In this document: one piece after another, positions 40,795 to 44,066 of the stretch
How positions within the stretch are numbered: the stretch's first letter is position 1
Layout: each line of letters starts with the position of its first letter
NCBI RefSeq assembly: GCF_024022995.1
Contig: NZ_CP099582.1
Coordinates: 1 to 64,000, forward strand
Length of the DNA stretch: 64,000 nt
Origin: Thermococcus aggregans
GTDB lineage: Archaea; Methanobacteriota_B; Thermococci; Thermococcales; Thermococcaceae
Direction of reading: 5' to 3'
Position numbers and translations under genes: made by a program
The notes under the pieces: generated by a model
What the model was told of the DNA's origin: nothing
The model's database searches: none
Seen by the model: the letters and a program-made list of their open reading frames with translations, nothing else

Positions 40795-41551
40795 TTAAGG
40801 TTTGCTGTTTCCTATTTTTCTTACTTTTAATCTTCCTGGACTCTTTTCTCCAGTAGCCCACAGACGATAAACTGTAGACGTGAATCCCTCCTCTGGAGAC
40901 TTCACAACATACATCCTTTCCTCGACCTTCTCATTAAGCTTCGTGGATGTTACTATTACGTAATCACTCACTCCTGCAACTCAACCAATAAACTTCTGGG
41001 AGACAACGTCCTTGTTTATCGGTAATATGAGTACCGAGTCTGGCATGTCCTTTGCTCCCCGAGCAATTGTTTGATTCAGCAATTTAAGAGTTTCAAGCTC
41101 ACCAAACATTAAAGCGATACCGTCGAGTGTGTTAATGAGTCTTATAGTTCTCCTACCTTTTGTTAGGGGTTGAATCTTCTTTGCATAGAGTAAATCTATC
41201 TTTGGGTTTATAAGCTCGGGCGACACGGAGTCGAGATAGAACACATTTTTCTTGTTACACTTGACGTTATACTTTGAGCCAAAAACATCAATTACTACAA
41301 GGTTATCATTTGAAAGTTCCTTTTCAATATCTAATCCCAATTCTTTTGCAGCCCTACATAGATTTTGAAGGGGAAAATTATAGTTAAATATTATCCCAAA
41401 GCTCCCTTGAAGAAGTTCTTTTTTGAGTATCGCAAAGCTCAGCATCCATGCGGACGAGTAAGCATCATATACTATGGTTTAAGACAGACCCTCCAGGTAT
41501 GTTCTTCTGAAAAATACTCCGTACTGCTTCTTGTTCATTTTCTTGAGTCAC
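40795..41551 (-). pseudogene. Broken KaiC-relative/DUF257-like gene (one frameshift, one in-frame TGA)
   Basis: On the minus strand, a GTG at 41551 opens a frame (TQENEQEAVRSIFQKNIPGG) that must shift by one base near 41470 to continue as IVYDAYSSAWMLSFAILKKE. This runs in one frame to a TGA at 40981-40983, after which the same frame continues for 61 codons (VAGVSDYVIVTSTKLNEKVE, then EEGFTSTVYRLWATGEKSPG) to TAA at 40795. The fold pattern (YDAYSSAW, VVIDVFGSKY, LINTLDGIALMF) recalls Thermococcales P-loop-less KaiC relatives. Two lesions make it a recent pseudogene. It is divergent from the KaiC-like operon starting at 41727, suggesting a former common function. Confidence 0.7.
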
Positions 41552-41726: not shown

Positions 41727-43088
41727 ATGAGCAGAACGGGGATTGATTACTTTGATGAATATATTCTCAAAGATGGCTTTCCAGATGGTTCATTAATTCT
41801 GATAGCTGGAGAACCTGGAGCAGGAAAAACTATATTTTCGGCAACGTTCCTATATAATGGAGCCACGAAATTTGGGGAGAAAGGCATTTACATTTCACTC
41901 GCAGAAACCAAAAGCGAGTTCTACGAGTCAATGAGGCAACTAGGGATGGACTTCGAAGAGCTCGAAAACAAGGGGCTCTTCAAGTTCATGGACTTCGTCA
42001 CAGTCGGTAAAGAAACTATAGATAAAGAAATAAGCCTTCTAATTGAAGAAATCGCAAAGTTCCAGCCAAAAAGGATTGTCATTGACTCCATAAGCGTCTT
42101 TGCCCAAATTTTAGGTGCCGAGAAGACAAGAGTATTTCTCCACACAATGCTTGGCAGGTTCATAAAAGCTCACAACTCTACTGCCCTCTTAGTCGCCGAA
42201 AAGCCAGTAGGAACAGAAAAAATAGGTTACGGTATTGAGGAGTTCGTAGTTGATGGAGTTGTCATTCTTAGGTACGAGTCTTTCGGAGAAGTCACAAGAA
42301 GGGTAATGGAAATCCCAAAAATGAGAAGGAGAAGCGTTGAAAAGTCTCAGTACGAGTACGTGATAACCCAGAAGGGAATTGAATTTCTGGCGATTCCTGA
42401 ACTCAAGAGGGAGGAAATGGAATACACATTAGAGAAAATTACGACAGGTGTAGACAAGCTCGACAAAATGCTTGGAGGGGGAATCTACAAAGGGTCAAGC
42501 GTTTTACTTGTCGGAATGACTGGGACTGGAAAAACTACCTTTGCTCTGCACTTTGCCGTGGCCAACGCCATGCAGGGAAGAAAAGCCGTCTACATATCAT
42601 TTGAAGAACCCATGGACCAGCTCATGAGGGCTGCCAAGAACTATGGCATGCCAATAGAGGAGGCCATGAAAGAGAACCTCAGAATTTTCACTTGGGTTCC
42701 AGAGAGCAAGACTCCAGTATGCACCTTTCTGAAAATTAGAGAGATAATCGAGGAGTTCAAACCGGAAGTCCTTGTGATAGATAGTTTAACAGCTCTAAGA
42801 CAACACATGGACGAGAAAGAGCTTGCAAAAATGCTTAGATACATCGGCTTATTGACAAAGGCAAACAGGATAACCACGTACTTTACACTAAACGAGGAAA
42901 CCAACTTCGAAGTCGTGCCATTTACTGGAGCAAGCACTATGGTAGACGTTATAATAGGGCTTAGATACCAAGTGAGAAATGAATCTATGGAGAGAAAAAT
43001 TGCAATTGTAAAATCTAGAGGATCAAATCACTCGAGAAAGATACACAAATACGAAATCTCTGACAAGGGGGTGGAAATTTATGAGTAG
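41727..43088 (+). CDS. Two-domain KaiC/RadA-superfamily ATPase
   Basis: 453 residues with two RecA-like KaiC domains in tandem. Domain 1: Walker A GEPGAGKT at about residues 29-36 and Walker B-like RIVIDSISVFAQ. Domain 2: Walker A GMTGTGKTT near residue 270 and Walker B VLVIDSLTALRQ. The catalytic Glu after each Walker A strand is in ISLAETKSEF and ISFEEPMDQL. No kinase-type Ser/Thr C-terminal tail of cyanobacterial KaiC is obvious. Archaeal KaiC-like proteins act in signalling, motility control or stress; this one overlaps a small gene that overlaps a third, suggesting a three-part module. Confidence 0.88.
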   Translation: MSRTGIDYFDEYILKDGFPDGSLILIAGEPGAGKTIFSATFLYNGATKFGEKGIYISLAETKSEFYESMRQLGMDFEELENKGLFKFMDFVTVGKETIDKEISLLIEEIAKFQPKRIVIDSISVFAQILGAEKTRVFLHTMLGRFIKAHNSTALLVAEKPVGTEKIGYGIEEFVVDGVVILRYESFGEVTRRVMEIPKMRRRSVEKSQYEYVITQKGIEFLAIPELKREEMEYTLEKITTGVDKLDKMLGGGIYKGSSVLLVGMTGTGKTTFALHFAVANAMQGRKAVYISFEEPMDQLMRAAKNYGMPIEEAMKENLRIFTWVPESKTPVCTFLKIREIIEEFKPEVLVIDSLTALRQHMDEKELAKMLRYIGLLTKANRITTYFTLNEETNFEVVPFTGASTMVDVIIGLRYQVRNESMERKIAIVKSRGSNHSRKIHKYEISDKGVEIYE

Positions 43089-43383
43089 TAAAGGGGAAGA
43101 GATTCTGGTTAAAGCAATCTCTGCGGCCCTTAGAGAAGTTGCTCCGGGACTGGAATCAGTTTTGGAGGCACATCTCAAGGCCACAATGAACAAGGGGCTC
43201 GAGGTCGCATATGAAAACCCAAAGGAGTTCAAAGACGCCGTTTCAAAGCTTTTTGGAGAATACAGCGCTAGATTGCTGGAAATGGTAATTATAAACAAGC
43301 TTAAGGGTCGTCTTGGAGAGGGAGAAGAAATCAGTTCTTTGGAGGAGCTGGTGGAGCAGATAAGGAAGATTTACGGTGAATGA
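43081..43383 (+). CDS. Small helical protein, partner of the KaiC-like ATPase
   Basis: 100 residues, predicted all-helical and acidic (GEEILVKAISAALREVAPGL, ARLLEMVIINKLKGRLGEGE). No Cys, membrane segment or recognised family. The start overlaps the end of the KaiC-like gene by eight bases, with GGGGGTGG as its binding site, so translation is coupled. It may be an adaptor or oligomerisation partner, by inference from gene order only. Confidence 0.75.
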   Translation: MSSKGEEILVKAISAALREVAPGLESVLEAHLKATMNKGLEVAYENPKEFKDAVSKLFGEYSARLLEMVIINKLKGRLGEGEEISSLEELVEQIRKIYGE

Positions 43384-44066
43384 AAATGAATCCTCTTGAG
43401 TTAATAACCACAGCATCAAAAAGGATAACCCCAACGGTTCTCAACTATCAAATAGGGAGCGATATCGAAAGCGTGCTTTATCATCTAACAAAAAGGCTAA
43501 GAGGAGAGTACGAAGAGTTTGTAATAATCTCTTTTCAGGACGCATACACTTCCATCTCAAAGTATCTGAAGTCGATATACAAAGATGCCCCAGAGGTCTT
43601 TAAAGACACATATCTGGTCTCCGTAAACCCCTTTCTTGAAGAAGAACTAAACCCAGATCTTCCTGTCAAGACAAAAGATGCGGAGATTATCACTGGCAGG
43701 ATTAGAGCAGCGTTGGGCGCAAAAACTAATACTCTATTCCTTGTTTTAGGCCTCGACCTCTATGGGGTCAAATACCCAGAAGAACTTCCCATAATGATCC
43801 CCGCAATTATTAGGCTTCTCTCAAAGGGCGAAAATAACAACCTCCTCATACCCTTCAACATCAAAATATTCCCAGAAAACATTGTGGAAGTAGTAAACAG
43901 CTTCGCTCTCAATCTCTTCAAGTTCGGGGTGGAAGTTAAGAGAGGAGAAATCAAAAGGAAGCTCACGATAATTAGAAGTCCTTTTGTCGAGTACAACCTG
44001 AGGTCATGGTATTACATGATTGTCCCCAACAAAATTGTTTTCTTATCTGCCTCCATGGAGGTTTAA
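43380..44066 (+). CDS. Conserved hypothetical protein, possible P-loop-less KaiC-like partner
   Basis: 228 residues, overlapping the previous gene by four bases (GAATGA). Alternating beta/alpha pattern with EFVIISFQDAYTSISKYLKS, TLFLVLGLDLYGVKYPEELP and KLTIIRSPFVEYNLRSWYYM looks like a RecA/KaiC core, but no Walker A is present. It could be a regulatory pseudo-ATPase of the KaiC-like protein. Not recognised as a named family. The broken divergent gene at 40795-41551 has a similar layout. Confidence 0.7.
   Translation: MKMNPLELITTASKRITPTVLNYQIGSDIESVLYHLTKRLRGEYEEFVIISFQDAYTSISKYLKSIYKDAPEVFKDTYLVSVNPFLEEELNPDLPVKTKDAEIITGRIRAALGAKTNTLFLVLGLDLYGVKYPEELPIMIPAIIRLLSKGENNNLLIPFNIKIFPENIVEVVNSFALNLFKFGVEVKRGEIKRKLTIIRSPFVEYNLRSWYYMIVPNKIVFLSASMEV

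Follow-up and report, generated by a model that had tools for sequence, protein, structure and literature searches.

A probable mobile KaiC-type signalling module of three overlapping genes in Thermococcus aggregans and its relatives

The window analysed here, a 64,000-nucleotide stretch of Thermococcus aggregans DNA, contains three overlapping genes on one strand, encoding a KaiC-family protein, the small protein NitrOD5 and a third protein, here called P3 (Table 1). An earlier sequence-only reading had described such an overlapping trio, and its outline stood: the open reading frames span 453, 100 and 228 aa, all on the plus strand, with overlaps of 8 and 4 nt. The KaiC gene ends in ..ATGAGTAG, whose ATG is the start codon of NitrOD5, and the NitrOD5 and P3 genes have an ATGA in common. 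The module is flanked in the window by genes for an aspartate racemase and CoaBC. No pilus genes were recognised among the module neighbours inspected.

Table 1. Coordinates of the three genes and of their main features in the window.
Feature	Position	Strand	Evidence
KaiC-family ATPase/autokinase gene, two-domain, 453 aa	41727..43088	+	PF06745 twice; top PDB hits by sequence are KaiC proteins, E 2.5e-70
Walker A of KaiC domain 1, GEPGAGKT, residues 28-35	41808..41831	+	G28, P30, G31, G33, K34 and T35 invariant in 19/19 rows
Walker A of KaiC domain 2, GMTGTGKT, residues 263-270	42513..42536	+	G263, T265, G266, G268, K269 and T270 invariant in 19/19 rows
Ser403-Thr404 of KaiC, opposite residues 431-432 (ST) of Synechococcus KaiC	42933..42938	+	phmmer alignment to u16684/1u9i; invariant in 19/19 rows
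Overlap of KaiC stop and NitrOD5 start, 8 nt	43081..43088	+	same overlapping start in 42/46 NitrOD5 loci
NitrOD5 gene, 100 aa	43081..43383	+	PF11537, E 2.7e-36; solved relative PH0832 (2p9x), E 5.8e-43
P3 gene, 228 aa, predicted inactivated KaiC/RecA fold, without Walker A	43380..44066	+	AlphaFold2 model, VIA-align, Foldseek
Vestigial P-loop of P3, YQIGSDIE, residues 23-30, instead of GxxxxGK[ST]	43446..43469	+	strand 19-23 / loop / helix 29-41 in model; G26, S27 and E30 invariant in 18/18 rows

The first protein was described from its letters as a double-domain KaiC ATPase, and this was borne out by a PF06745 score of 370.5 bits (cut-off 26.6) spread over two KaiC domains, each with its own Walker A motif. 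Members of the KaiC family have paired catalytic glutamates in both domains. In the Thermococcus protein the Glu-Glu of domain 2 (E293, E294) was invariant in 19/19 aligned relatives, and in domain 1 the Glu-Glu of Synechococcus KaiC is matched by Ala-Glu, so that one Glu of the pair is kept. KaiA binds the C-terminal tail of KaiC; the alignment to Synechococcus KaiC stopped at residue 451 of 453 in the query and at 479 of 519 in KaiC. Across 115 genomes from the window's phylum, no KaiB rose above its family cut-off in a search whose Synechococcus control was positive, and weak matches (E<=1e-3) occurred in three of these genomes, none of them in the window's family. The Synechococcus residues opposite Ser403-Thr404, S431 and T432, are potential phosphosites (PMC2778140). 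Pyrococcus horikoshii PH0833 and T. litoralis KaiC3 autophosphorylated in vitro at 30 and 75 C, independently of KaiA (PMC5520375).

The second protein is NitrOD5 (PF11537), with 124 bits against a curated Pfam cut-off of 27, a protein that has been placed in an archaeal Death-domain-like family (PMC5847659). The NitrOD5 of genome G029 was identical to PDB entry 2p9x (PH0832) over 98/98 aligned residues, and a KaiC gene lies directly upstream of it. Because of this upstream gene and the adjacent gene numbers, PH0833 should be the KaiC of the same module in P. horikoshii.

P3 matched no family in Pfam or NCBIfam. Its AlphaFold2 model, built on 18 sequences (pLDDT 88.3, pTM 0.88), retrieved KaiC-like ATPases as the top Foldseek matches (best 2dr3, E 9.3e-10). 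VIA-align superposed it on 2ekd (PH0250) with Z 19.4 and rmsd 2.9 over 197 residues, on KaiC 8zn5_B with Z 17.0 and rmsd 3.1 over 204 residues (about 16-17 against KaiC domain 2) and on 2dr3_E with Z 16.6. Sequence kinship to KaiC was weak by hhalign, with a probability of 14.8% (E 0.0018) for whole KaiC and 30.7% (E 5.3e-4) for domain 2. No GxxxxGK[ST] motif was present at the P3 loop in any of the 18 aligned rows, as judged by eye, in keeping with the earlier description of a RecA-like protein without Walker A. On the strength of the model, P3 is predicted to be an inactivated protein of the KaiC/RecA fold. Its invariant residues were concentrated in three vestigial nucleotide-site segments, hand-chosen by the analyst (12/25 residues, against 27/203 elsewhere; Fisher p 1.3e-4). 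This clustering suggests that the former nucleotide pocket has been kept for something besides ATP hydrolysis.

We surveyed the distribution of the two small genes in the window's phylum, where NitrOD5 occurred in 42 of 115 genomes (41 over the cut-off) and P3 in 31. Gene neighbourhoods were compared on 53 stretches (28 + 25), which gave 46 NitrOD5 loci with matches >60 bits, the window counted in. KaiC or a KaiC fragment lay directly upstream of NitrOD5 in all 46 loci, with the exact 8-nt overlap in 42. The dN/dS ratios, each based on five close-relative pairs, were 0.03-0.10 for KaiC, 0.02-0.04 for NitrOD5 and 0.09-0.35 for P3; together, these low ratios and the recurring overlap argue that the trio is more than a chance arrangement. 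Downstream of NitrOD5, P3 was present in 26 of the 46 loci and absent in 20, and the latter include L168 and L171, whose KaiC and NitrOD5 are of the window type. At a 47th locus (L174, genome G106) a 5'-truncated NitrOD5, starting from residue 15, is followed by P3, with no KaiC within 1.2 kb upstream. At every locus where P3 matched over a long stretch and the sequence upstream was available, P3 was preceded by NitrOD5 (27/27 loci). The 31 genomes with P3 comprise the 26 (among them G027, whose P3 is split into two ORFs), G106, G117 (at a contig edge) and relics in G030, G032 and G061. The sequence-only reading had named independent occurrence of the small genes in relatives as evidence against its proposal. 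Such independence was mostly not found in the neighbourhood survey: 46 of 47 NitrOD5 loci were preceded by KaiC, and P3 consistently stood behind NitrOD5.

Genus g3 carries a second, more divergent version of the KaiC-NitrOD5 pair that has no P3; in most cases a small protein, c9 (mostly 83-89 aa), comes next. Profile comparison of c9 with NitrOD5 gave a probability of 90.8% (E 1.2e-6 over 52 columns), and the NitrOD5 Pfam model alone scored it at 13.6 bits (cut-off 27); a structure model of c9 (pLDDT 78, pTM 0.60) had no confident PDB match. By the profile comparison, c9 may be NitrOD5-like. The KaiC ORF is broken in the modules of G008 and G069 and has one in-frame stop in G002. From these disrupted genes and from the relics in three further genomes, it follows that the gene set is dispensable. 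Weak P3 matches in G018, G022 and G026 (E 0.003-0.009) fell inside an unrelated conserved gene, c69, and were taken as chance.

The module occurred in at least eight distinct gene contexts, and one copy lies on the T. peptonophilus plasmid NZ_CP014751 (49,106 bp), the sole match among 72,556 plasmid records. We compared protein distances across 24 module sets, that is, the 27 module genomes minus G008 (split KaiC), G027 (split P3) and G106; genomes with partial or disturbed KaiC (G002, G011, G069, G076) or partial rpoA1 (G006, G102) were retained. The distances correlated at 0.83 for KaiC-NitrOD5, 0.79 for KaiC-P3 and 0.89 for NitrOD5-P3, against about 0.50 with rpoA1. With rpoA1 removed, the correlations were still 0.77, 0.71 and 0.85, respectively, and were reached in 0/2000 permutations each. 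Mean distances were 0.80 for P3, the fastest of the three, and 0.42 and 0.54 for the other two. The concatenated three-gene tree required four changes for g3 and two for g2, and a single clade was rejected on it for both (p-AU 3.7e-55 and 1.2e-9, respectively). Since the three trees agree with one another and not with rpoA1, and since the contexts are many and one copy is plasmid-borne, repeated joint transfer of KaiC, NitrOD5 and P3 is the simplest reading.

Beyond this phylum, NitrOD5 matches were found in 30/349 genomes of the phylum to which G060 belongs (4 over the cut-off). None turned up in 151 genomes of G059's phylum, in which the control search was silent too. A clear KaiC match (>70 bits) lay within about 1.5 kb of 7 of the 30 NitrOD5 loci in the G060 phylum. 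Of these, six had enough length for a judgement, and in each the P-loop was confined to domain 1. The single ORF at L180 carries NitrOD5 (21.7 bits, cut-off 27) together with a live KaiC domain and a second one lacking a P-loop. A search started from KaiC in the same phylum returned 30 loci, 16 of which hold a KaiC ORF of >= 400 aa; again the P-loop was in domain 1 only (16/16), and nine of the 16 loci contained a NitrOD5-like stretch (16.6-24.5 bits), one of them being the same fusion. The same NitrOD5 model had no match in 228 kb of control loci, nor in 20 shuffles. At L257 the P-loop pattern was loosely matched once more, but inspection by eye did not support a P-loop there. The combination of live KaiC, dead KaiC and NitrOD5 is thus predicted from sequence to recur in another archaeal phylum, in one case as a fused protein.

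A dead second domain could not be shown to set NitrOD5-linked KaiC apart, as all 16 unselected two-domain KaiC proteins have it, with NitrOD5 nearby or not. We also considered P3 as a member of the same family as these dead domains. The two share motifs by eye, but hhalign spoke against it (score 17.8, compared with 32.4 to the KaiC domain 2 of P3's own operon). As P3 shows no special similarity to the dead domains found in that phylum, only the composition recurs and not the P3 family, and the likeness between them may be convergent. Two other NitrOD5 fusions occur there, to rubrerythrin at L177 and to a receiver domain at L182; the latter architecture has already been published (PMC5847659).

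In our judgement, KaiC, NitrOD5 and P3 probably constitute a single KaiC-type signalling module that is translationally coupled and moves horizontally. KaiC would form the usual hexameric double ring and would change state by hydrolysing ATP and through phosphorylation at Ser403/Thr404. As a helical adaptor, NitrOD5 would bind one of the KaiC states, occupying the position held by KaiB in cyanobacteria, and P3 would bind the KaiC ring or NitrOD5 as a regulator or receiver through its conserved non-catalytic pocket; P3 could be lost or exchanged while the KaiC-NitrOD5 pair persists. The kinase step has been reported in vitro for orthologues, and we infer the remaining mechanism from co-inheritance and fold. 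The sequence-only reading had likewise envisaged a switch made of an active ATPase, a small adaptor and a pseudo-ATPase. Co-location, co-inheritance, the NitrOD5 family and the KaiC fold of P3 favour that picture, although P3 is evidently dispensable to the pair, being missing from 20 of 46 NitrOD5 loci.

That frequent absence, which extends to loci whose KaiC and NitrOD5 are near the window type (L168, L171), is what would be expected if KaiC and NitrOD5 were the working pair and P3 an accessory or passenger with its own role, carried at the end of the operon. The rapid evolution of P3 (mean distance 0.80, against 0.42 and 0.54) and its dN/dS, the highest of the three, point the same way. However, P3 sat behind NitrOD5 in 27/27 loci and in at least eight contexts, it is under purifying selection, its distances fit those of NitrOD5 best (partial r 0.85) and it too has the KaiC fold, and we regard a passenger role as rather unlikely. 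A timer, whether clock or hourglass, with NitrOD5 and P3 replacing KaiB and KaiA, would account for the Ser-Thr pair kept in 19/19 rows and for the lack of any KaiB over the cut-off among the 115 genomes. The C-terminal tail is nevertheless absent, the alignment to Synechococcus KaiC ending at 479/519, and we know of no light or day cycle relevant to vent Thermococcales, which we count against a timer. Orthologues do autophosphorylate, but archaeal KaiC3 was unaffected by KaiA (PMC5520375); a DEATH-like partner has been suggested as a possible KaiB substitute in an archaeal oscillator (Makarova et al. 2016, PMC4858521). On balance, timekeeping seems improbable to us.

Several neighbourhoods suggest a switch that responds to energy or redox state and governs O2/ROS enzymes. 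In the context of L086/L090/L096, the module is bordered by a desulfoferrodoxin (PF01880) and a pyridine nucleotide oxidoreductase at one end and by an ODP/flavodoxin flavodiiron-type protein at the other; a peroxiredoxin adjoins P3 in G088; an FMN reductase and a peroxiredoxin stand beside the module on the T. peptonophilus plasmid; and the NitrOD5-rubrerythrin fusion of L177 fits as well. Yet redox flanks were seen, by raw count, in only 3 of about 8-10 contexts, the neighbours of an insertion site may mean nothing, and those in the window itself (aspartate racemase, CoaBC) are non-redox enzymes; we consider a redox switch unlikely. Antivirus defence, as an abortive switch with a DEATH-like adaptor, would suit a module that is patchy, plasmid-borne and frequently broken. 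PADLOC, though, had no model for NitrOD5 or P3 and gave KaiC only general ATPase matches (<= 40.6 bits), relatives of P3 and NitrOD5 were not found in viral contigs, and the module's neighbours in the window are housekeeping genes, making a defence role very improbable in our view. KaiC-like matches in nine phage records were of the general RecA/RadA type, with <= 51% coverage, and were set aside.

Returning to the mobile signalling module, a broader version is that live KaiC, dead KaiC and NitrOD5 make up an old archaeal switch, mobile and free of KaiA and KaiB, in which the dead KaiC would receive the state that ATP or phosphorylation gives the live one, perhaps under tuning by redox stress. 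We offer this only tentatively, as a rather unlikely possibility; the old unit would be built of three genes in Thermococcales and of two genes or one fused gene in the second archaeal phylum.

Modules of this kind have already been predicted in the literature, and the kinase has been assayed, so the view from sequence alone that no function had been described for the set went too far. In 2016, a regulatory pairing of a KaiC-like ATPase with a helical DEATH-like protein was put forward, in which the helical partner possibly takes over from KaiB (Makarova et al. 2016, PMC4858521), and P. horikoshii KaiC autophosphorylates (PMC5520375). Live KaiC, inactivated KaiC and Death-like domains have been joined in one archaeal network, with inactivated KaiC homologues predicted in 2017-2018 (PMC5847659, citing Makarova et al. 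2017). A literature search for the gene set by name returned no paper on P3, and no print source was found for P3 as a fixed third gene, for transfer as a unit or for recurrence in a second phylum, Makarova et al. 2017 being outside the scope of both searches. As far as this search reaches, P3 as a fixed pseudo-KaiC partner, the unit transfer and the recurrence of the composition elsewhere are new. Archaeal KaiC homologues are numerous and most have no assigned partner; in this compact set the partners are fixed by genome evidence. One partner has been crystallised, the kinase is active at 75 C and the order has genetic tools. Through the trio, the target of archaeal KaiC signalling without KaiA and KaiB becomes directly testable.

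Like cyanobacterial KaiC, the Thermococcus protein has a two-domain architecture, both P-loops and the Ser-Thr phosphosites. In contrast, Synechococcus KaiC runs 40 residues further, in a C-terminal tail that the Thermococcus protein lacks, and the Thermococcus genome has no KaiB over the cut-off, the partners here being NitrOD5 and P3. P. horikoshii PH0833 (KaiC3) and PH0832 (2p9x) represent the same module as that of the window, but the earlier work, in the passages considered, took KaiC and NitrOD5 singly and covered neither P3 nor any interaction. In fold, P. horikoshii PH0250 (2ekd) and PH0321 (3bs4) match P3 best or nearly so (Z 19.4 and 16.2), although each is only 12% identical to it and, going by their titles, both are uncharacterised. 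The pair arCOG01174 and arCOG03758 likewise joins a KaiC-family ATPase to an adjoining small helical protein that is distantly DEATH-like (PMC4858521). It differs in consisting of two genes beside type IV pilus genes, whereas the window set adds P3. Finally, KaiC-like ATPases with inactivated homologues reportedly serve as archaeal signal hubs (Makarova et al. 2017, mBio). The elements of that network, live KaiC, dead KaiC and the Death-like NitrOD5, all come together in the window trio.

Synonymous divergence between the window and L079, a locus of genome G001, fell along the module, from 1.14 in KaiC through 0.59 in NitrOD5 to 0.08 in P3, the third module gene. Because divergence declines in this direction, the comparison of the two sequences suggests recent recombination within the module.

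The module is preceded in the window by the remnant of a KaiC-like gene without a P-loop (c41), which is broken into two ORFs of 154 and 58 aa; longer versions, encoding proteins of 246–255 aa, occur in L079, L083, L084 and L085. Behind CoaBC, relatives of the window carry a gene for a DUF835 protein (c25), whereas none was seen at that position in the window itself.

Coordinates of the module and of related features
Feature	Location	Strand
KaiC-NitrOD5-P3 module	window 41727-44066	+
c41 remnant	window 40795-41445	-
c25 (DUF835), example	L081:12010-12576	-
NitrOD5-rubrerythrin fusion	L177:877-1806	-

The NitrOD5-rubrerythrin fusion comes from a genome of the second archaeal phylum, that of G060. 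Genus g3 has a second version of the KaiC-NitrOD5 locus (L099-L101, L152-L154, L157, L159, L160, L162-L165, L170, L173, L175 and L176), with HEAT-repeat proteins and an RsmB/F-type methyltransferase encoded nearby; in most of these loci the next gene encodes the small protein c9, which carries the motif FLGEFPT. The module is also found on the T. peptonophilus plasmid NZ_CP014751 (L207), where genes for an NAD(P)H-dependent oxidoreductase, a peroxiredoxin and FTR1 lie next to it, as do heavy-metal genes.
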